Below are positions 1-33,572 of a stretch of DNA of 37,175 bases, piece after piece. The notes under the pieces were generated by a model, which did not search any database, was not told the origin of the DNA, and was given only the letters and a program-made list of their open reading frames with translations. The position numbers and the translations under genes are program-made. The stretch is taken from contig JAVEEI010000110.1 of NCBI GenBank assembly GCA_030840525.1, positions 1 to 37,175 of the forward strand, in the 5' to 3' direction. Each line of letters starts with the position of its first letter. The first letter of the stretch is position 1. The stretch is from Frankiaceae bacterium (GTDB lineage: Bacteria > Actinomycetota > Actinomycetes > JAFAQI01).

Positions 1-3000
1 GGCGACGATGGCGGGGTAGGCGCCGACCGGCACACCGGAGTCGACCCGCACCGGCGCCGACCAGGTGGCGCCGTGGTCGGTGCTGTGGCTCAGCACGATG
101 TGGTGGCCGTTGTCCCACACCATGTACGCCGTCCCGCTCGCGTCGACCGTGAGCTGCGGGGCGCCGTGGTAGCCGAAGCAGTAGGCCTCGCTGACCCACC
201 AGCCGTTGGTGCGGCACGGCATCGTCTTCAGCACGCTCGGGCTGTTCCAGTTGAGGCCACTGTTGCCGGTCGACGCCGTCTCGATCGTGGTGACCGCGGT
301 CTCGAAGCCGAACGGGTCGTTGCCGGAGCAGGTGAACACCGAAGACACGATCCGCTGGCAGTTCGGCAGCGTCGTCGGGTAGAGCGGGACCAGGCCGTTC
401 GAGCCCTGCATCACCGATCGGGACACGAACGTCGACGGGGAGAAGAAGTCGTGCACGCCGGTGTCGAGCACCCGGGTGAGCTGCACGTACTCGGTGCCGC
501 CGCGGCTGAGCGCGTAGTCGGCGACGCTGTCCGCGGTGTCCTGGAACGTCATGCCGCTGGTGTCGCCGTCGATCGCGACGACCGCGGGGTTGTCGAGGTC
601 GCCGGTCGCGGTTGTCGTGACCGCCGCGCTCGGGCTGGTCAGGAACGAGTGGGCGCCGTCGCGGGACGCGCCCGCCGTCACTACGGAGTCGGTGAAGAAC
701 GACGTCACGGCGCCGCTGGCGAAGATGAGCCGGTCGCCGCTGCCGGTCGGCGGCGCGAGCGGAGTGCTGCCCGACGGCGAGGCGGCGAGCGAGCAGCTGC
801 GCGCGGACACCGCCGACGCCGACGCCTGGTCGGGCCGACCGAGGTAGGTCGGTGCGTCGTGCCCGCGGCCGTCGGCGTCGAGCACGTCCGACCAGATCGC
901 GCAGGGCATCTTGTGCGGCGTCGCCCCGAAGACGACCGTGCCGGCAGGCAAGGTCGCGGGGTCCGAGGTCGTGGTCGGCGCCATCGCGAAGACGTTGCCG
1001 TGGCTGTCGATGGCGAGGCTCGCGTCGATGCTCTGCTGGCCGAGGTTGGGCAGCCGGACGGCGGGGGTGAAGCCCCAGCCCGCACCGCGCACGGGCTGCG
1101 CGTCGGGCCGCAGCGGCGCCCGGGCGATCTGCGTGATCCGGCGGACCCGGCCACTGAGCTCGTCAGTCACGACGAGGTCGCCGGCCGGGTTGAGATGCAG
1201 GCTGTGCAGGCCGGCGAAACACGCGGTGGCCGCGGCACCGCCGTCCGCGCACTCGCCGCCGCTGTACCACCAGCTCCCGGCCGCGCTGCCGACCGCGTAG
1301 AGGTCGTAGGTGTTGCGCGTGTTGCCCGCGACGGTGCCGGCGACGCCGTCGGCGCCGACGCGCCGGATCCGGTTGTTGAACTCGGCGACGTAGAGACTGC
1401 CGTCGGGGCCGATGTCGATCCCGTACGGCATCAGGAACGCGACCTGGCGCGCGTGGCTGCCGTCGCCGTAACTACAGAGCACGTCCGTCGTGCAGCCGGA
1501 GCCGCCGGCGTACGTCGCAATGGTCCGCGGCGCGAGCGAGTAGCCCCACAGGTCGACCGGCTGCGTGCCGACGTTGACCGCGAGCACGCGGCCGGCGCCG
1601 GTGCCGGGACCGGTGCTGGTGAACGGGTCGGCGACCAAGAGCAGGTCGCGGCGGCGGTCGTACGCGAGCGCCGACGGCAGGATCGTGACGTTGTACGCGG
1701 GCGCGCCGTCGAACAAGGGTGCGGCGGTCGGCGGCGGCAGGCCGACGAGTGCGGCGACCTGGGCGGCCAGCGTGCTCGCCCGGCCGGCGACGAGGAAGTC
1801 CTTGCCGCAGTAGTTCACCGCGAGCACCTGCCCGTGCAGCAGGTCGGTGACGAACAACGTGCCGCGGCGCGGGTCGAGCGTCATCGAGCCGAGGCCGATG
1901 ACCGCGTCGAGGTAGGTGTTGCAGAAGTCCTCGCACCGGCCGATGGTCGGGAACAGCGGGACGTGCAGCCGCAGCGCCGGCCGGTGGTAGACGGTGCCGA
2001 TGGTGCCGGGCCGGACGGTCACGCCCTGCGGCCGCAACGTGTGGCCGCCGAAGTTCACGTACCGGACCGCGTCGCCGTCGGAGATGTAGAGGTTGTCGTA
2101 CTGGTCGAGCAGCAGCGACTCGGGATCCTCGAGCACCGCATCCTGCGGCCGGCCGCCGTCGCCGGACCCGGCCTGCGGCGGCTGGCAGTTCAGCGTGAGC
2201 CCGAAGTAGAACGGCGGCGCGACCGAGCACGACCGCGGCGTGCCCGCGGCGATGCTGACCGTGCCGTCGGTGCCGACCCGTACGACGACGCCGTAGTTGG
2301 GGATCGCGGCGTACGTGACGCCGTGGCTATCGGTGACCGCGTCGACGGCGTCGCCGATGTCGGCGCCGGTGAGGTACGTCTGGTTGCGGGCGAGCGCGCC
2401 ACCGGCGAGGCCGGCCGGGCGGGCGGAGTCGCCGGCCGCGGCCGAGCCGATGCCGCAGTAGGCCGCCTGGCCGTTGCCGGCGAGCCGGCGCAGGTGCGCG
2501 GCTGTCCCGGCCTCGACGATGCGGCTGCCGCCCCAGTCGGAGACGACCAGGCCGCCGTGCGGCGTGGCCGCGACACCCATCGGGTAGTCGAGCCGGTCGA
2601 GGAGGTCCTTGGTCTTGCCGCCGGCGACGGTGCGGACCGTGCCGCCGGGGGAGATCGCGCGGATCGCGTCGTTGTAGGTGTCGGCGACGAGCAGGCCGCC
2701 GTGGCCGTCCGGCGCGAGGTCGCCGTAGAACCAGCCGTCGTGGTCGCGGACGTCGAACCGCGCACCGCTCAGCGGTCCGCCGTCACCGGCGTAACCGGGG
2801 GCGCCGCCGCCGAGCGCCGCGACCGTGTCGGGCGCGACCGCGGTGCCGTACATCGGGCCGGCCGAGCCAGCGGTGTTGAGCCCGAGCAGGTAGACCGAGC
2901 TGCCCTGCACGACCCACGCGGTCGGGAACCCGTCGACGCCGCCGACACCGCGGTAGGTCTCGCTGGACGCGAGCATCGTGAGCCCGCGCGGGCCCACGAC

Positions 3001-4368
3001 CATGCCGGCGACGAACGGGATGTGCGCGGCCGACGCGGGCACCGGCTGGTCGCCCGGCGCCGGCGCGGGAGTCGTGCCGAACGTGGTGTCGGTGAACGTC
3101 GGCTGGTTGGGGTCGCCGGCGATGGTCCCGACGGTGTGCGCGTCGACCGTCACGTCGTTGCCGGTGCCCGGGTAGAAGGTCACCGGCCGCGCCGAGAGGT
3201 TCAGGAACCGGATGACCGTGGTCGCGGTGTAGCCGGGCTGGTCGGTGCCGAAGCGGCCGCTCGACGGCGCCTGCGCCTGCCCCTGCGGGATCGCGGTGAT
3301 GCTCGCGTCGGCGACGTAGAACGTGCTGGAGTCGGCGACGTAGAGGTTGCCGTTGTCGTCGGCCGCCATCGCGGCGATGTTGTTGAACGCGGCGGTGCTG
3401 ACCGCTTTGCCGTCGTTGCGGTCGGCGGGGAGAGCGAGCGAGCCGGCGATGAACTGGTTGGAGCCGTCGGCGCGCAGCCGGCCGATCACGGGACCGCCGG
3501 CGGGGACGTCGCGCGCCTGCCAGTCGGGGCCGGCCGGGTGGCCGTCGTCGACGTACCGGTTGAAGGTGTAGAAGACGCCGCCCTGCTGGTCGGCGACGAT
3601 GCGCACGTCGTTGCTCTCGATGCCGCCCCAGCCGCGGCCGAACCGGCCCTCCATCGGGCCGTTGAGGTTGCCGAGGGTGCGGACCCGGCCGTCGCGGTCG
3701 AGGGTGCGGATGTAGGCGCCGGACTGCGCGTGCAGGTCCGAGCCGACGTCGACCCAGAAGACCCGCCCGGCGTGGTCGACGACGACGTTGCCCGGGCTGA
3801 CCGACGCCTCGAGTCCCGGCAGCCCGTCGCAGCGGCCGCCGAGCACCGTCGAGACGGTGCCCGGCCCGTGCGTGACCGTCGGCGGCGGGTAGAAGACCGA
3901 CTGCCGCGTCCCTGCGAGCTTGACGTCCCACGGGTCGCCGGGGCTCCCGGTCGACGAGGTGCTCGCGCTTTCGGCCGTCGCGGCCGTGCCGGCGGGGGCG
4001 ACCGAGCGCGGCAACATCGGGTCGCGGACGCCGGTGTGCTTGCCGGCCGGCAGCTTGAGGTGCGGGTTGGCGTTGAGCGCCTTGCCGGCGAGCTCGTCCC
4101 GCGCCTCCTGCGTCATCGGCAGCCGGCCGAGAACGGGGGTGGCAGCAGGTACGACGAGGTGCCGGCCGTTGCGGACGTCGAACACCAGTTGGCGGCCGTT
4201 CATCGTGCCGAGCGAGATGAACGGCGACGTGATGCGGGCGGCCTTCGACTGGGCGGTGCCGAACGCCGCGTGCCAGCCGGGAACCCAGGCGAGCGCGAGC
4301 GTCGCGGCCAGCGCGAGGCGCAGCGCCGTACGAGCGCGGGTGCGCCCTCGCAACCAGCGGTGCACCAC
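1..4368 (-). CDS. Very large secreted NHL/Asp-box beta-propeller protein (3' end outside window)
   Basis: The reading frame is open from a GTG at 4368 to the left edge, so at least 1456 residues are present and the C-terminus is missing. The N-terminus has an Arg-rich stretch and a hydrophobic core (residues about 13-32), which reads as a signal peptide for export. NHL-type propeller repeats are clear: residues 557-576 contain GGLLVADTYNDAIRAISPGG, residues about 578-620 contain YPMGVAATPHGGLVVSDWGG, and another lies near residue 977 (MPYGIDIGPDGSLYVAE). Near the left edge, residues 1429-1436 read STDHGATW, an Asp-box (SxDxGxTW) as in sialidase-like propellers, with a second weaker copy upstream. 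The start is set by GGGGGAGG just before two consecutive GTG codons (4368 and 4365). It is the last visible member of a co-directional set, 44 nt after the GCS2-like gene. No enzymatic motif is seen; an adhesion or scaffold role is inference. Confidence 0.85.
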   Translation of the reverse strand, partial: MVHRWLRGRTRARTALRLALAATLALAWVPGWHAAFGTAQSKAARITSPFISLGTMNGRQLVFDVRNGRHLVVPAATPVLGRLPMTQEARDELAGKALNANPHLKLPAGKHTGVRDPMLPRSVAPAGTAATAESASTSSTGSPGDPWDVKLAGTRQSVFYPPPTVTHGPGTVSTVLGGRCDGLPGLEASVSPGNVVVDHAGRVFWVDVGSDLHAQSGAYIRTLDRDGRVRTLGNLNGPMEGRFGRGWGGIESNDVRIVADQQGGVFYTFNRYVDDGHPAGPDWQARDVPAGGPVIGRLRADGSNQFIAGSLALPADRNDGKAVSTAAFNNIAAMAADDNGNLYVADSSTFYVADASITAIPQGQAQAPSSGRFGTDQPGYTATTVIRFLNLSARPVTFYPGTGNDVTVDAHTVGTIAGDPNQPTFTDTTFGTTPAPAPGDQPVPASAAHIPFVAGMVVGPRGLTMLASSETYRGVGGVDGFPTAWVVQGSSVYLLGLNTAGSAGPMYGTAVAPDTVAALGGGAPGYAGDGGPLSGARFDVRDHDGWFYGDLAPDGHGGLLVADTYNDAIRAISPGGTVRTVAGGKTKDLLDRLDYPMGVAATPHGGLVVSDWGGSRIVEAGTAAHLRRLAGNGQAAYCGIGSAAAGDSARPAGLAGGALARNQTYLTGADIGDAVDAVTDSHGVTYAAIPNYGVVVRVGTDGTVSIAAGTPRSCSVAPPFYFGLTLNCQPPQAGSGDGGRPQDAVLEDPESLLLDQYDNLYISDGDAVRYVNFGGHTLRPQGVTVRPGTIGTVYHRPALRLHVPLFPTIGRCEDFCNTYLDAVIGLGSMTLDPRRGTLFVTDLLHGQVLAVNYCGKDFLVAGRASTLAAQVAALVGLPPPTAAPLFDGAPAYNVTILPSALAYDRRRDLLLVADPFTSTGPGTGAGRVLAVNVGTQPVDLWGYSLAPRTIATYAGGSGCTTDVLCSYGDGSHARQVAFLMPYGIDIGPDGSLYVAEFNNRIRRVGADGVAGTVAGNTRNTYDLYAVGSAAGSWWYSGGECADGGAAATACFAGLHSLHLNPAGDLVVTDELSGRVRRITQIARAPLRPDAQPVRGAGWGFTPAVRLPNLGQQSIDASLAIDSHGNVFAMAPTTTSDPATLPAGTVVFGATPHKMPCAIWSDVLDADGRGHDAPTYLGRPDQASASAVSARSCSLAASPSGSTPLAPPTGSGDRLIFASGAVTSFFTDSVVTAGASRDGAHSFLTSPSAAVTTTATGDLDNPAVVAIDGDTSGMTFQDTADSVADYALSRGGTEYVQLTRVLDTGVHDFFSPSTFVSRSVMQGSNGLVPLYPTTLPNCQRIVSSVFTCSGNDPFGFETAVTTIETASTGNSGLNWNSPSVLKTMPCRTNGWWVSEAYCFGYHGAPQLTVDASGTAYMVWDNGHHIVLSHSTDHGATWSAPVRVDSGVPVGAYPAIVA

Positions 4369-6757: not shown

Positions 6758-7627
6758 TTACGACGGGAGGGTGAGCCAGATCTGGCGACCCGCGGTCCAC
6801 TGCACGTCGCCGGCGTACTCGTCGGAGAACTTCGCCCCGACGTTGGGCCAGTAGTGCCAGCCCGACGTGATGTCGGCGGTGCTCCACGCGACCGCGTCGC
6901 CGGGCAGTGCGGCGTGCATCCCGTCGGTGCCGGCCAAGTCGCCGGTGCACGCCTCCGCGGGAAGTGGCTCGGCCGCGAGCGCGGCCGCGTCGGTGCCGTC
7001 GTAGATGCACGACGGGTCGGCGGAGAACGCGAGGTCGCTGCCGTGCGCCCAGACGTACGACCAGAGCTCGGTCGGGCCGGTGAGCCTGGCGTGCCCGTAG
7101 GAGTGCGCGTCGGGACCGCGCCCGCTCGTCAGCGTGCTGGCGTACGTGGCGCGGTGCGTCGCGCGGTACGTCCCGGACACGGCGAGCGGCCAGGACACGC
7201 GCTCGGGTGCGGTCGCGAGCACGACGAGCCAGTAGGTGCCGCGGGGCAAAGACGTGAGGGCGCCGGTCGGGCGTTGCTCGTAGCGGTAGCCGCCCGAGCC
7301 GTCGGGCAGCGACATCGCCAGCACCGAGAGATGCCCGGTGAAGCCCTGCGCGGTGACGACCTTCGTGTTGACCAGCGCGACGCCGACGAAGTGCGCGGGG
7401 TCGCTGACCGTGAGGTGCACCGGGAGGTCGTAGCCCGGGTCGCCGAGCGGGAGGTCGCGCACCAGGCGGACGGTGGTGAAGGCCGCTCCTGGCGACGACA
7501 CGACCAGGCCCGCATGCGCGGCCGGCGCGGCCGCCACCGGAGTCGTCATCGCGAGCGCGACGACGAGAGGTAGGGCGCGCCGTACGAGACGGCGCGCCCC
7601 TCTCGGTGTGCTCAGACGGGCCCGCAC
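6758..7627 (-). CDS. Secreted protein of unknown function
   Basis: The product is 289 aa if translation starts at GTG 7627. The first 38 residues form a classical signal peptide: Arg-rich n-region, hydrophobic LPLVVALA, then a PAAHAG cleavage-like site. The mature part is beta-rich, with LTVSDPAHFVGVALVNTKV and PRGTYWLVVLAT resembling an immunoglobulin-like or carbohydrate-binding sandwich. It holds two cysteines (SCIYDG and EACTG), which could form a disulfide. No catalytic motif is seen. The GTG lies inside the 3' end of the preceding secreted-protein gene (16-nt overlap), implying coupled translation. An ATG further in (near 7551) would remove most of the signal peptide and is less likely. 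Confidence 0.65.
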   Translation of the reverse strand: MRARLSTPRGARRLVRRALPLVVALAMTTPVAAAPAAHAGLVVSSPGAAFTTVRLVRDLPLGDPGYDLPVHLTVSDPAHFVGVALVNTKVVTAQGFTGHLSVLAMSLPDGSGGYRYEQRPTGALTSLPRGTYWLVVLATAPERVSWPLAVSGTYRATHRATYASTLTSGRGPDAHSYGHARLTGPTELWSYVWAHGSDLAFSADPSCIYDGTDAAALAAEPLPAEACTGDLAGTDGMHAALPGDAVAWSTADITSGWHYWPNVGAKFSDEYAGDVQWTAGRQIWLTLPS

Positions 7628-8061
7628 GACAGGGGGCCGTACTGGGTCGTGCCGTTGAAGAACGACACCTGGACGCACTTCGTCAGCGGGTCGTTGTTCT
7701 GCTCGACGAAGCTGCCGGTCGCCGCGGCGGCGTTGTCGCGCTGGAAGCCCGAGTCGACGGTCAGGACGGGCTGGCCGTCCTGGGTGATCGTGCAGGTGAT
7801 GCGAGTGGCGAGGACGTCGGTCCCCTCCACGACGCCGGCGGCCTGGACCTCGATCGTCGCGCCGCCCGGCTGGCCGAGGCCGACCGGAGCCTGGACGAAC
7901 TCGGGCTGGCACCACTGCGTGTACGGGTGCAGGTTGATCAGCCCCGCACCGCCTGACCCGAGGTCGTCACTGAGGTTCGCGGCCTGCGCGCCGGGCGCGG
8001 TCATGGCGAACAGGGCGCCGAAGGTGGCAGCGCCAGTGGCGATCATGCATAGCTTCTTCAA
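7612..8061 (-). CDS. Small secreted cysteine-containing protein
   Basis: The product is 149 aa from TTG 8061, chosen because it gives MKKLCMIATG followed by a hydrophobic stretch and an AQAAN cleavage site, and because AAGGAAAGGAA lies about 9 nt upstream; an ATG at 8040 would lack the Lys pair. The mature protein has four cysteines (QWCQPE, RITCTITQDG, LTKCVQV, LSCGPV), probably paired in the oxidising exterior. Its second half resembles the secreted protein at 32804-33502: both have TCxI followed by D/N-G, then C-x-x-V, then a GTTQ motif and a closing CxPV. The two genes also share an upstream element. Function unknown. Confidence 0.7.
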   Translation of the reverse strand: MKKLCMIATGAATFGALFAMTAPGAQAANLSDDLGSGGAGLINLHPYTQWCQPEFVQAPVGLGQPGGATIEVQAAGVVEGTDVLATRITCTITQDGQPVLTVDSGFQRDNAAAATGSFVEQNNDPLTKCVQVSFFNGTTQYGPLSCGPV

Positions 8062-8159: not shown

Positions 8160-8190
8160 GTAATACCGTCCGGAAGGTCGTTTGCTTACG
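8160..8190 (-). promoter_or_regulatory. Bipartite element, copy 1 (CGTAAG-N12-CGGACGGTATTAC)
   Basis: On the minus strand CGTAAG (8190-8185) is followed by exactly 12 nt and CGGACGGTATTAC (8172-8160). The same arrangement occurs at 33542-33572 upstream of a similar secreted protein. The downstream half contains TATTAC as a possible -10, about 100 nt before the TTG start; the upstream half lies at a -35-like distance. It could be an alternative sigma-factor promoter or an activator site. Confidence 0.5.
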
Positions 8191-8308: not shown

Positions 8309-11300
8309 ATGACTGTGCCCTCGTCACAACACCGGCTGCCCAAGGCGATCGCCGCCGTCGCCGTCCTCGCTCTCGCCGCCGTACCGGTGGTCGCGGGCGC
8401 GTCCACGACGTACCCGACCGCGCACGCGGGCCAGGACTACCGGTCGCTGCACATCAAGAACGGCAGCTGCGCCGGCACCCTCGACCCGGCGACGCAGCAC
8501 CCGGCCGGGAGCGACCTGCCGCCCGGCTTCCGGTGCAAGGACTCGCAGAAGCTCACCAGCTACGCGCCGCAGCCCGGCGACAACGACTACGACCCGAGCG
8601 TCGAGAACAACCCGCAGGAGCTGTTCGGGGTCAAGGGCTCCAGCACCAACCTCGCGTGGGAGGTGACGACCGGCCGCCCGGACACCGTCATCGCCGTCCT
8701 CGACTCCGGCATCGAGTACGACGACCCGCTCGTCGCGAACAAGATCGAGCTCAACCGCGGCGAGCTGCCGCCGCCGTGCCCGGCCGGCACCGCCGTCGCC
8801 GACTGCAACGGCACGTACGGCGACGCCGGCGCCACCTACGACACCAACAACGACGGCGTCCTGTCGGTCAGCGACTACACCGGCGACCCGCGCATCACCG
8901 CGGCGATCCCGGCCGCGGCGACCCGCGCGCTCAACCCCGAGGACCTCATCCGTACGTTCTCCGACGGCGTCGACCACGACGGCAACGGCTACAAGAACGA
9001 CATCGCCGGCTGGGACTTCTACCAGCACGACAACAACCCCGCGGACGACGTGCACTACGACCACGGCACCGGCGAGGCCAAGGACTCGACCGCCGAAGCC
9101 ACCGCCAACAGCATCAGCCAGTGCCCCAACTGCCGGGTGCTGCCGCTGCGCGTCGGCGACTCGTTCATCGCGGACGTCAACCACTTCGCCGCCGCCGTCG
9201 TGTACGCCACCGACAACCGGGTCGACGTCGTACAGGAGGCGCTCGGCACCCTCAACCACACGGCATTCGCGCAGAAGGCCGTCGACTACGCCTACCGGCA
9301 CGGCGTGCTGATCGTCGCGAGCGAAGCCGACGAGGAAGCGGGCCACCACAACTACCCGGCGGCGCTCAACCACACAATGGTCGTCAACTCGGTGACGCAG
9401 TACGCCAACCAGGACGTGCCCGGCACCGGCGTCAACGCGACGCTCGAGGCGCCGAAGAGCTACCTCGCCTTCAACGGCTGCACGAACTTCGGCGGCTACA
9501 CGTGGGTTTCGGTCGAGTCCAACTCGTGCTCCTCCGACGCGACCGGCCAGGCGAGCGGCATGGCCGGACTGCTCTACTCCGCCGCCGAGAACGCGGTCGA
9601 AAACGGCGTCATCAAGCCGGACGCGAGTGGCCGCCCGCTGTCGGCCGAGGAGGCCAAGCAGCTCTACCGCGTCGCCGCGCAGGACATCGACTTCTCCGAC
9701 CCGCAGCTGCCCGTCGGCCCCGCCAACAACTTCGCGACGACGCTGCCCGACACGGTGAAGTACGTCACCACCGGCGGCTGGGACCAGATCACCGGCTGGG
9801 GCCGGATCAACGCCGACAACCTGGTCCGCATGGTCGCGCACGGCGACATTCCGGCCGAGGCCGACATCACGTCGCCGAGCTGGTGGTCACCGCTCGGTAC
9901 GACGGGCACCGTGCCGCTCGTCGGCCGGGTCGCCGCGCCGCGCGCGTCGTCGTACACGTACGACGTCGAGGTCGCGCCGGGCGTGCAGCCGGCGCCGTTC
10001 CCCGCGACCGACACGTGGACGACGGTCGCGAACGGCAGCGGGACGCAGCCGAAGTCGGGCGTCCTCGCGACGCTCGACCTGGCCAAGATCCGCTCGCTCA
10101 TCGACGCCGCGGTGCCGGCGTACACCCCGGCCAACGACCCGACGTCGCCGGACCTGCCGGAGAAGGACGCGTTCCGGGTGCGCGTCGTCGTACACACCGC
10201 GGGCAAGCCCGACGCGATCGAGCAGCGCGAGTACTTCGACTCCGCCGACACGACGATGCTGAAGGGCTTCCCGAAGCCGCTCGGCGCCGACGCGACGAGC
10301 GTCGCGTTCGCCGACATCGACGGCGACGGCAAGGCGGAGATGGTGTTCGGCGACGGCAACGGCAACGTGCACGCGATGAAGGCCGACGGTCGCGAGGCCA
10401 CTGGCTTCCCGGTGCAGACCGAGGCGCTGTCGTGGCTGCCGTCGTCGGGACGCAACGGCTTCACTACCGGCGCCATCTCGGCGAACGTGCACGCGCCGCT
10501 GCTGCTCGGTAGCCCGCTCGTCAGCGACCTCAACCACGACGGGTACCCGGAGATCGCGGTCACCGACATCGAGGGCCAGCTGCACCTCTTCGACCACACC
10601 GGGCGCGAGGAGCCAGGGTTCCCGGTGCACACCGACCCGGCGTACTCGCACGACCCGGGCTGCGAGACGGCGATCGGGCCGACCTGCGATCACTACGTCG
10701 TGCACCACGTGCGCGACTACGTCAACACGGTCGACAAGGCGTTCGCGGCCATGCCGTCCGCGGGCGACCTCGACCCGTCGTACCCGGGCCTGGAGATCGT
10801 CGCCGGCGCGATGGACGGTCACATCTACGCGTGGCACGCCGACGGCACTCCGGTCGCGGGGTGGCCGGTGCTGCTGCGCGACCCGTCGAAGGTCGCGAGC
10901 GTCGACCCGGTCAGTCACCGCATCACGTTGAAGAGCGGCAACGACAAGGGCAACTCTTACTACGGCCGGCAGGTCATCACGACGCCGACGCTCGCCGACA
11001 TCAACGGCGACGGGAAGCTCGAAGTCGTCGTCAACGTCGACGAGGAGTACAAGGAGACGCCGAACTACAGCGTGCGCACGCCGACCGTCGACCTGCTCGG
11101 TCACTCCGGCGCGATCGGCGACGGCAACACCCGGACGTATGCGCTGTGGGCAGACGGCACTCGCCACCCGGGGACCGAGAAGGTGCCCGGGCTCGGTGAC
11201 AACGCGTACCTCGCGGGCTGGCCGGCGAGCATCGGCATGGTCGAGGCCGAGGTACTGCCGGACGTCGGCGCCGGCTCCAACGGCTCGCCCGTCGTCGGGC

Positions 11301-12487
11301 ACGTCATCGCCGGGTCGTCGACGCCGCAGATCGCGACCGCGTCCGTCGGCGGCCCGCCGTACCTGTTGAACCCGGACGGGAAGAGCACGTACGGCACCGA
11401 CCCGGAGGGCCACTCGATCACGATGGGCACCGAGGAGGGCCACGGCGCCGGCACCGACCTGCCGGCGGTCGCGTCGCTGGGCGGCGGTGTGCTCGGCAAG
11501 CTCGGCGGGGCCAACTCGCCGATGTCGTTCGCGATGGGCGCGACCGGCGTCAAGCGGCTGCTCGACATCATCCTGCCGGACCAGCAGCTCGGCGCCGAGG
11601 ACTACGTCGGCGCGTGGGACGGCACGACCGGGACGTTCGAGCCCGGCTTCCCGGCGCGGATGAACGACTTGCAGTTCTTCAACACCCCGGCGATCGCGGA
11701 CGTCGACGGCAGCGGCCTGCCGTCGGTGTTGCAGGGCTCGGCGGTGTACGACCTGCGCGGCTACAAGCTCGGCGGCGTCCCCGCGACCGGGTTCCCGAAG
11801 TTCACCGGCGGCTGGATCACGCAGACGCCTTCGGTCGGCGACGTGCTCGGCGACGGCGGGCTCGAGCTCGCGGTGCCGACCCGCGAGGGCAACCTGTTCG
11901 TCTGGAAGACCGGCGGCTCGGTCTGCGGCGACCTCGAGTGGCCGAAGTTCCAGCACGACCTGCGCAACACCGGCGACTACGACACCGACGCGACACCGCC
12001 GGGCGTGTTGCGCGACGCAGCTCTGACCGGCGGCACGGTTCGGCTGACGGCGAGCGGCGACAACGGCTACTGCTCGGGTACCGCGGCGCACTACGTGCTC
12101 ACGGTCGACGGCGTCCAGCACGTACTCGCGACCGCACCGGCGGCGGCCGGTACGGCGCAGGCGCTGGACGTGGCGGCGCTCGCGGCCGGCGCGGACGACG
12201 TCTCGCTGTCGGTCGAGGACGCGGCCGGCAACCTCTCGTACCCGGTCGTGCTGCGCGGCGGGCACAAGCACGGCAAGGGCGAGGATTCGCAGCCGGGCCA
12301 CGGCAGCGACGGCGACCACGGCGATGCGGCCGGGTCGGACGCGAGTGCCGCGGGCACGCCGACACCACCGTCGGCGCCGTCGTCGCTGAGCTCGCGGCTG
12401 GCGAGCTTCGCGGTCGACGCCGACCTCGCCGTACTCGCCGCGCTGGCGCTCGCCTTCGCGCGCGTCGCGGGGCGGGTGAACCGATGA
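8309..12487 (+). CDS. Subtilase-like (S8) protein with FG-GAP propeller repeats and C-terminal membrane anchor
   Basis: The product is 1392 aa. A signal peptide (residues about 10-30, AIAAVAVLALAAVPVVAGA) leads to a subtilisin-type domain (residues about 105-520). Asp132 lies in VIAVLDSGIEYDD and His252 in YDHGTGEA. The Ser416 region reads TGQASGMAGLL instead of GTSMA, and the oxyanion-Asn region reads VASEADEEAGHHNYPA instead of AAGN. Activity is therefore doubtful. Residues about 665-1215 carry at least five FG-GAP/VCBS-like repeats with D-x-D/N-x-D/S-G calcium loops (FADIDGDGKAEMVF, SDLNHDGYPEIAV, ADINGDGKLEVVV, ADVDGSGLPSV, GDVLGDGGLELAV). A His/Gly/Asp-rich linker and a final hydrophobic helix with a basic tail anchor it; no LAxTG or LPxTG sortase motif is seen. 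ATG 8309 is preferred over the upstream in-frame GTG 8228 because it puts the signal peptide at the N-terminus, though its SD is weak. Confidence 0.85.
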   Translation: MTVPSSQHRLPKAIAAVAVLALAAVPVVAGASTTYPTAHAGQDYRSLHIKNGSCAGTLDPATQHPAGSDLPPGFRCKDSQKLTSYAPQPGDNDYDPSVENNPQELFGVKGSSTNLAWEVTTGRPDTVIAVLDSGIEYDDPLVANKIELNRGELPPPCPAGTAVADCNGTYGDAGATYDTNNDGVLSVSDYTGDPRITAAIPAAATRALNPEDLIRTFSDGVDHDGNGYKNDIAGWDFYQHDNNPADDVHYDHGTGEAKDSTAEATANSISQCPNCRVLPLRVGDSFIADVNHFAAAVVYATDNRVDVVQEALGTLNHTAFAQKAVDYAYRHGVLIVASEADEEAGHHNYPAALNHTMVVNSVTQYANQDVPGTGVNATLEAPKSYLAFNGCTNFGGYTWVSVESNSCSSDATGQASGMAGLLYSAAENAVENGVIKPDASGRPLSAEEAKQLYRVAAQDIDFSDPQLPVGPANNFATTLPDTVKYVTTGGWDQITGWGRINADNLVRMVAHGDIPAEADITSPSWWSPLGTTGTVPLVGRVAAPRASSYTYDVEVAPGVQPAPFPATDTWTTVANGSGTQPKSGVLATLDLAKIRSLIDAAVPAYTPANDPTSPDLPEKDAFRVRVVVHTAGKPDAIEQREYFDSADTTMLKGFPKPLGADATSVAFADIDGDGKAEMVFGDGNGNVHAMKADGREATGFPVQTEALSWLPSSGRNGFTTGAISANVHAPLLLGSPLVSDLNHDGYPEIAVTDIEGQLHLFDHTGREEPGFPVHTDPAYSHDPGCETAIGPTCDHYVVHHVRDYVNTVDKAFAAMPSAGDLDPSYPGLEIVAGAMDGHIYAWHADGTPVAGWPVLLRDPSKVASVDPVSHRITLKSGNDKGNSYYGRQVITTPTLADINGDGKLEVVVNVDEEYKETPNYSVRTPTVDLLGHSGAIGDGNTRTYALWADGTRHPGTEKVPGLGDNAYLAGWPASIGMVEAEVLPDVGAGSNGSPVVGHVIAGSSTPQIATASVGGPPYLLNPDGKSTYGTDPEGHSITMGTEEGHGAGTDLPAVASLGGGVLGKLGGANSPMSFAMGATGVKRLLDIILPDQQLGAEDYVGAWDGTTGTFEPGFPARMNDLQFFNTPAIADVDGSGLPSVLQGSAVYDLRGYKLGGVPATGFPKFTGGWITQTPSVGDVLGDGGLELAVPTREGNLFVWKTGGSVCGDLEWPKFQHDLRNTGDYDTDATPPGVLRDAALTGGTVRLTASGDNGYCSGTAAHYVLTVDGVQHVLATAPAAAGTAQALDVAALAAGADDVSLSVEDAAGNLSYPVVLRGGHKHGKGEDSQPGHGSDGDHGDAAGSDASAAGTPTPPSAPSSLSSRLASFAVDADLAVLAALALAFARVAGRVNR

Positions 12488-32276: not shown

Positions 32277-32807
32277 GTGTTCGGCAGCAAGAGTGTCGCG
32301 TCGACGAACCCCGCCCTGACCACTCGGCTCACCGAGACCTGGGACAGCGCCCGCACCACGCTCGCCCCGCACGTGGAGTCCGCCCGGGTGGCGGTTGCTC
32401 CCCGGATCGCGGCCGCGCGCGACGCGGTCGCGCCGCTGGTCGACGAGGCGAGCGCCCGGATGACTCCGGTGCTCGACACCGCGCGGACGCGGCTGCGCGA
32501 GGACGTCGCGCCGGCGGTCGCCGCGGCGGTCGAGAACTCCGCGCCGGCGCGGGCCGAGGCTCGCGACCGGGCTGCTGCCGCGCTGCTCGCGTTGCGCGGC
32601 GAGCGCAAGAAGGTACGCCGCTGGCCGCTCGCGCTCGGCTGCCTGGTCGCCGGTGCCGCCGCCGGGATCGCCGCGGGTGCGATCAACCGGAAGATGGCGA
32701 CCCCGGTGTCGCCGACCCCGTTCCCCGCGCCCACCCCTTCCGCTTCGACCACCGAGCCGGAGACGACGCCGTACCCGGTCAGCCGGTCCGGCGGCGCGAC
32801 CTCTTAG
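32277..32807 (+). CDS. Ala-rich helical membrane protein (DUF5324-like)
   Basis: The product is 176 aa. Residues 15-110 form a heptad-like, Ala/Arg-rich helical region with repeated units (ESARVAVAPRIAAARDAVAPL, then DTARTRLREDVAPAVAAAV), as in apolipoprotein-like or coiled-coil proteins. A membrane helix follows near residues 123-142 (WPLALGCLVAGAAAGIAAGAI) and an outer tail rich in Thr/Pro/Ser. Architecture and position next to ppiA match the DUF5324 family of actinobacteria, as far as can be judged by eye. GTG 32277 has GGAGGA 5 nt upstream. It is divergent from ppiA across 131 nt. Its stop overlaps the stop of the convergent secreted-protein gene. Function unknown. Confidence 0.75.
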   Translation: MFGSKSVASTNPALTTRLTETWDSARTTLAPHVESARVAVAPRIAAARDAVAPLVDEASARMTPVLDTARTRLREDVAPAVAAAVENSAPARAEARDRAAAALLALRGERKKVRRWPLALGCLVAGAAAGIAAGAINRKMATPVSPTPFPAPTPSASTTEPETTPYPVSRSGGATS

Positions 32808-33502
32808 AAGTCGGAGTACGGCGGGCAGTCGTAGACCGGGTTGAGGCCTAAGTCCAGCGGGTCAGGCGCATAGACGTCGCCGTCGGGACCAATCGTGAAC
32901 GGACCGATACTGCCAGCGAACGATGCCAGGACCGGGCAGGCCAGCGGGTCCGCCTCCGAGTGGAGGACGGATCGCACGAGGTCAGCGGTCGGTGGCAGGA
33001 GGTCCGCGATCGCCTGCGGTGGAACCTCGGGCCCGTCGGTGACAGGCGTGCAGACCTTGGGCTGTGTCGTGCCATCGGCATAGAGAACGGTCTCGCACAG
33101 CAACACGGCGTCGCCGACACCGGCCACGAAAATCTCCGTCTCGGCGCCGCCCTGGACCCCCTGTGCGCCAGTGAAGTGCGGTTGATCGATGTCGTCGATG
33201 CCGTTGACGTCGATGTTGCAGGTCACGCTCGCCCCGGTCGGCACAAGCTTCGCGTCAGTTGTCACCGAAGCGTCGCCGACCTCGGCGTGGTACGTGTCCG
33301 GACTCGTCGGGTCCTCGACGGCCACCATGAAACAGCCGCCGTGGATGGTGTCGCCGGCCGAGTTCGACTGACTGAGCGGAGCCACGCCGACGAGCACACG
33401 GGTCTTCGCGTCGCGAACGCCCGCATGCGCCGCCGGTATGACGCCCGCGGTCAGCCCCACGATGGCGACAGCCACGATCGTTCGTTTCGTCGTAGCGCGC
33501 AT
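32804..33502 (-). CDS. Secreted cysteine-containing protein, similar in pattern to that at 7612-8061
   Basis: The product is 232 aa. A signal peptide (residues 1-27, ending AAHAG) precedes a mature region with six cysteines. The central part has ASVTCNIDVNG, a C-x-x-V unit (LLCETVLY), DGTTQPKVCTPV, and a C-terminal extension ending VYDCPPYSDF. The TCxI...GTTQ...CxPV order is shared with the small secreted protein at 7612-8061, suggesting a common fold. GGAGGGG precedes ATG 33502. The bipartite upstream element (copy 2) lies 39 nt before the start. The stop overlaps the convergent gene's stop (TTAG shared by both strands). Function unknown. Confidence 0.75.
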   Translation of the reverse strand: MRATTKRTIVAVAIVGLTAGVIPAAHAGVRDAKTRVLVGVAPLSQSNSAGDTIHGGCFMVAVEDPTSPDTYHAEVGDASVTTDAKLVPTGASVTCNIDVNGIDDIDQPHFTGAQGVQGGAETEIFVAGVGDAVLLCETVLYADGTTQPKVCTPVTDGPEVPPQAIADLLPPTADLVRSVLHSEADPLACPVLASFAGSIGPFTIGPDGDVYAPDPLDLGLNPVYDCPPYSDF

Positions 33503-33541: not shown

Positions 33542-33572
33542 GTACTACCGTCCGAACGGACCGCCCCTTACG
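33542..33572 (-). promoter_or_regulatory. Bipartite element, copy 2 (CGTAAG-N12-CGGACGGTAGTAC)
   Basis: On the minus strand CGTAAG (33572-33567) is followed by 12 nt and CGGACGGTAGTAC (33554-33542), differing at one position from copy 1 in the downstream half. TAGTAC would be a -10 giving a leader of about 30 nt before ATG 33502. Confidence 0.5.

Follow-up and report, generated by a model that had tools for sequence, protein, structure and literature searches.

A short two-box element, CGTAAG followed after an 18-nt gap by GTANT, precedes two secreted-protein genes in the window (the whole 37,175-nt stretch of DNA analysed here, contig C96 of a 3.17-Mb genome in 228 contigs). This element is very probably the −35/−10 promoter of one ECF-type alternative sigma factor that drives a regulon of secreted proteins. 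The earlier note had suspected a bound site of the sigma-factor or activator type, a suspicion borne out by 11 sites in the window's own genome and by conservation in two sister species. From the sequences, we infer that RNA polymerase carrying the ECF sigma would read −35 CGTAAG and −10 CGGTAGT across a 16-nt spacer and start transcription ~7 nt after the −10 box. In the window, the promoter would drive gene 32804-33502 and the operon 8061-6758, and the regulon would consist mostly of an expanded, genus-restricted cysteine-protein family, together with a Pro-kumamolisin-domain protein and small secreted proteins.

The regulon itself appears not to have been described before, although systems of this kind are known. 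For an alternative sigma in an uncultured, Frankia-related actinobacterial lineage, it supplies a clear promoter code along with a defined set of targets, and it reveals a family of secreted cysteine proteins, also undescribed, whose members seem to be deployed together.

The two window sites and their genes

The 31-nt element that had been reported upstream of same-strand genes at two places in the window is indeed present at both. A pattern search for CGTAAG-N12-CGGACGGTAKTAC returned exact matches (0 mismatches) at 8190..8160(−) and 33572..33542(−), each before a signal-peptide gene, and no third window match even when three mismatches were allowed. Dinucleotide shuffles give 0.03 expected matches in the window, and no shuffle reached two. 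The relevant features are as follows.

8160..8190, minus strand: promoter-like site 1, exact match; −35 CGTAAG at 8190-8185, 18-nt spacer, −10 GTATT at 8166-8162
7612..8061, minus strand: target gene 1, 149-aa cysteine-containing secreted protein with signal peptide MKKLCMIATGAATFGALFAMTAPGAQA; TTG start at 8061
6758..7627, minus strand: second gene of the putative operon, secreted protein of 289 aa; its GTG start (7627) overlaps the tail of gene 1
33542..33572, minus strand: promoter-like site 2, exact match; −35 CGTAAG at 33572-33567, 18-nt spacer, −10 GTAGT at 33548-33544
32804..33502, minus strand: target gene 2, secreted protein (232 aa), member of the GGC...TC.I.VNG...CP.L...YDCPPY family; ATG start at 33502

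At site 1, 100 nt lie between GTATT and the TTG start, and at site 2, 41 nt lie between GTAGT and the ATG; a Shine-Dalgarno sequence is present in both cases. Since target gene 1 overlaps the secreted-protein gene 6758-7627, site 1 probably serves an operon. Neither product is recognizable by domain searches, with no Pfam or convincing NCBIfam match for the 7612-8061 protein and no Pfam match for that of 6758-7627, and the structure model of the former is too poor for fold comparison (pLDDT 42). Nearby are genes for two large secreted proteins, namely a subtilase carrying FG-GAP repeats (8309-12487, plus strand, divergent from site 1) and, at the edge of the window, an NHL-repeat protein of 1455 aa (1-4365, minus strand).

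Homologs of 7612-8061 with 29-34% identity and the same two-gene order occur in both sister species (G001:C234 and G002:C47). These have no CGTAAG upstream and share another element, CGAACCTCCCTTG...TTCCTA, at the following places.

L273, upstream of 1905(−): CGAACCTCCCTTG...TTCCTA element
L274, upstream of 1486(+) and of 3006(+): CGAACCTCCCTTG...TTCCTA element

Judged from these upstream regions, the copy in the window may have come under a different regulator.

Target gene 2 belongs to a family with the consensus GDTI.GGC..., TCWI.VNG, C...V.YADGTT....C, PPQ, CP.L, GDV..DPLGLGLNPVYDCPPY. The family has 7, 20, and 7 copies in the three genomes of the genus (34 in total), none in 37 other genomes, and no Pfam or NCBIfam match at E 0.1. 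AlphaFold2 modelling of 32804-33502 (mean pLDDT 75.8, with blocks 51-100 and 121-150 at 92-94) predicts a beta-rich domain at about residues 36-153, for which the PDB returned no match at E 0.001 and generic beta-sandwich matches only. Copy number, tandem arrays, and lineage restriction together suggest a fast-evolving extracellular role. One such array, G001:C310:5790-10436 (L127), comprises seven diverged family members with a single site, before the first.

The two window genes had been taken to encode similar proteins on account of matching cysteine patterns, a view that we revise: they represent two different families, not clearly one. The profile of the GGC...YDCPPY family does not find 7612-8061 in its own genome, and BLASTP aligns the two window proteins at 28% over 106 aa, with E 1e-4 without composition correction. 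By this measure, a distant relatedness is possible.

A two-box motif before secreted-protein genes

At one mismatch, the original 31-mer gained a single further site in the genome, C174:4391, again before a secreted-protein gene. With three genome matches the 31-nt pattern proved too narrow, and the search was therefore reduced to the two boxes. CGTAAG-N16-CGGTA has nine exact genome matches; its reversed control has 14 at ≤1 mismatch, that is, ~0.4 exact matches expected. The refined motif is CGTAAG-N18-GTANT in its relaxed form and CGTAAG-N16-CGGTAGT at its best. With the relaxed −10, the genome holds 11 good sites on six contigs: C96 (two), C205 (five), C174, C206, C16, and C186. Every one of them stands before a signal-peptide gene, compared to 50 of 196 other genes on which the same crude signal-peptide rule fires. 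The full-genome scan proposed in the earlier note thus did yield further hits before secreted-protein genes. Two more matches, both with GTAAC, were excluded from the count: C149:37734, which precedes a flippase-like gene, is probably a chance match, and C115:1131, which precedes a secreted-protein gene, may be a 12th site. The note's picture of a small regulon of secreted cysteine proteins is upheld insofar as the targets are secreted and mostly cysteine-containing, but the set is broader, as it includes a Pro-kumamolisin-domain protein (start C205:22099); small secreted proteins are also among the targets.

For promoter architecture, we read 27 sites from loci fetched for a motif match or a family gene; they characterize the motif but do not amount to a count across the genome. 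CGTAAG, GTA, and the 18-nt gap are invariant among them, as the scan required, and the spacers differ. The T of GTANT is present at 24 of the 27 sites, and none shows dyad symmetry. In an open scan of 32 upstream regions that allowed spacings of 16 to 18, spacing 18 was best in every gene scoring at least 9/11. The sites therefore look like ECF-type promoters, which have two boxes at a fixed spacing of ~16-18 nt and are non-palindromic and upstream on the same strand. The spacer of 12 nt originally described is corrected to 16-18, the right half noted then being the −10 region plus chance neighbours; CGGA is shared before CGGTA at just three of the 27 sites, and we regard the CGGAC extension as incidental to the motif. 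Ahead of the −35 box, between −18 and −5 relative to CGTAAG, the 27 sites have A/T-enriched positions (A at −18, T/G at −11, A at −7) that may represent an UP-like element.

Six genes place the signal-peptide ATG behind GTANT at a distance of exactly 6-7 nt, and they have no Shine-Dalgarno sequence. Such an arrangement would follow directly if GTANT were a −10 box and the transcript began at the ATG; leaderless mRNAs are described as common in mycobacteria (PMC4633059). Nearly all remaining target genes have longer leaders with a Shine-Dalgarno sequence. In tandem arrays, the site is found before the first gene and is absent before internal genes.

The genus comprises three genomes, the window's own (G000) and those of the sister species G001 and G002; the organism is known from MAGs only, and its named relatives are 'Frankiaceae bacterium BP_195' and 'Frankiales bacterium LS_FP_2_bin.126'. 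Exact CGTAAG-N17-RGTAGT occurs eight times in the own genome and four and three times in the sister species, with reversed controls of 0/0/0. In contrast, two exact matches in total were found in 37 further genomes from the family, order, and class, versus 12 for the reversed control, and on these counts the motif is essentially genus-restricted.

Alternative readings of the element

Because the site lies 100-170 nt from the start codon in some genes, there is space for a separate promoter, and the element might then be the binding site of an activator or repressor. We consider this improbable, given the fixed 18-nt gap, the lack of dyad symmetry, the −10-like pattern, and the single orientation; moreover, the six genes with an ATG directly behind the box leave no space for a promoter downstream of it. 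That many targets are paralogs, and that two paralog promoters on C205 are near-identical even beyond the motif, could also suggest mere remnants of gene duplication with no regulatory function. This reading is extremely improbable: the boxes are invariant, yet most paralogs differ from one another in spacer and flanks; the boxes also precede genes that are unrelated (7612-8061, the Pro-kumamolisin-domain gene, and those on C186 and C16); and the sister-species homologs of 7612-8061 are without the motif.

Candidate sigma factors

With a promoter of one ECF-type sigma as the preferred reading, the question arises which of the 39 sigma-region-2 matches in the genome marks its cognate factor. 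Our leading, though tentative, candidate, on sequence grounds, is a predicted membrane-tethered ECF at C205:10149-11177, which an extracytoplasmic signal would release, inducing the secreted proteins. Its contig (44.6 kb) holds five of the 11 sites, the nearest 3.7 kb from the ECF gene. With 39 sigma genes in the genome, such proximity is not rare by chance: we estimate ~0.8 sigma genes expected within 4 kb of some site for all 39, and ~0.2 for the nine extended ones described below. The protein carries the sigma2 and sigma4 domains PF04542 and PF08281 over the cut-off, a hydropathy-predicted transmembrane segment at about residue 207, and a predicted outer tail ending in VC...C. A full-length 69% ortholog exists in G001, with a divergent vWA-domain neighbour in both G000 and G001, whereas best matches in 11 genomes outside the genus reach 29-42%, mostly over the sigma domain only. 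No ortholog was found in G002, where sites and family genes are present; the completeness of this genome is just 68%, and the syntenic contig breaks off within the cluster. No motif copy lies upstream of the C205 ECF gene itself, and many ECFs are autoregulated. Among the other sigma loci of the genome, none has the motif upstream; two looser CGTAAC matches turned up.

The −35 half, CGTAAG, belongs to the GTAA class of ECF promoters, as do those of BldN and SigD; searching the literature for CGTAAG as a sigma box gave no relevant result. Targets of BldN in Streptomyces include secreted coat proteins. A BldN ortholog (C123:30713-31546) might thus read the promoters here, through an expanded regulon and a drifted consensus comparable to the Streptomyces chaplin/rodlin coat proteins, although we think this quite unlikely. 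The C123 protein is a true BldN-family ECF (TIGR02952, 218 bits, over the cut-off), and downstream of its gene lie a probable anti-sigma gene and, before a secreted-protein gene, a CGTAAC-N16-CGTTAC site. The −35 CGTAA and the 16-nt spacer are those of the BldN promoter, CGTAAC-N16-CGTTGA (PMC2375139), and the Streptomyces system resembles ours in its small regulon that includes secreted structural proteins. Here, however, the −35 box ends in G and the −10 is CGGTAGT (GTANT) instead of CGTTGA, while a separate BldN and a BldN-type site exist in the genome. None of the 27 sites pairs a −35 CGTAAC with a −10 CGTT as in a BldN regulon. Each of the three species has a single CGTAAC-N16-CGTTAC site in its genome, whereas the 27 sites carry CGTAAG and GTA, and no family upstream region has a CGTAAC-type site. 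In addition, the BldN of the complete same-family genome G004 is 81% conserved and has a near-identical recognition helix, yet G004 has none of these sites.

Another ECF could be responsible, the best case being a ShbA/SigD-like one at C12:24721-25269, whose gene is also followed by a probable anti-sigma gene; we hold this to be unlikely. The recognition helix of this ECF, GKKVGAVKALQHRALATLRR, is similar to the BldN helix, GKNEGAIKALQYRAVKSLSR, a likeness that the region-4 helix of the C205 ECF does not have. The best NCBIfam model for the C12 protein is ShbA, below the cut-off (117 of 209 bits), followed by the BldN family, and when G001 and G004 were compared it had an 83% ortholog in the former and no reciprocal best hit in the latter. 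SigD of Corynebacterium glutamicum reads GTAAC(A/G) with a −10 of GAT (PMC6338062). Its promoters share with ours the GTAA −35 class and envelope-related targets; they differ in that the −10 here is GTANT, not GAT, and in the target proteins. Against the C12 ECF, there is no site near its gene or near the G001 ortholog, nor one upstream of the C12 gene itself. A sigma factor other than these three is rather doubtful as well.

The C205 candidate is one of about nine C-terminally extended ECFs in G000 (C205:10149+, C93:32321+ and 18533+, C194, C61, C22, C166, C170:33293, and C107; loci L074, L119, L191, L038, L045, L049, L042, L114, and L116). Several have a predicted transmembrane helix and most a cysteine-containing outer tail; an alignment of seven tails shares P..G...I.TP.G...VC....C. 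None has a reciprocal best hit in G004, and most have orthologs of 57-74% in G001. This is an unusual number of extended, apparently membrane-tethered ECFs for a genus, so the pairing of sigma and promoter bears on the idea of a one-protein sensor. ECF groups fused to transmembrane segments are known (ECF48, ECF52, and ECF53; PMC8999054). Like these (e.g., SCO4117), the C205 candidate combines an ECF domain with one predicted transmembrane helix and an extracytoplasmic tail; it differs in having no zinc-finger anti-sigma-like or carbohydrate-binding Pfam domain at E 0.1, in a tail that ends in a conserved cysteine pair, and in an adjoining small secreted cysteine-protein gene. One can speculate that a self-tethered, genus-restricted ECF, with its paired-cysteine outer tail and adjoining cysteine protein, senses the outside and controls the whole secreted set, as one of about nine parallel circuits, each possibly with its own promoter code.

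Beside most of the extended ECF genes lies a gene for a small secreted protein (55-93 aa, at least two Cys), a possible ligand, inhibitor, or co-sensor. These genes are listed below.

L074, 11320-11538, plus strand: small Cys-protein gene
L119, 3441-3671, minus strand: small Cys-protein gene
L191, 7537-7818, minus strand: small Cys-protein gene
L038, 2472-2687, plus strand: small Cys-protein gene
L114, 2146-2313, plus strand: small Cys-protein gene
L190, 5286-5543, minus strand: small Cys-protein gene
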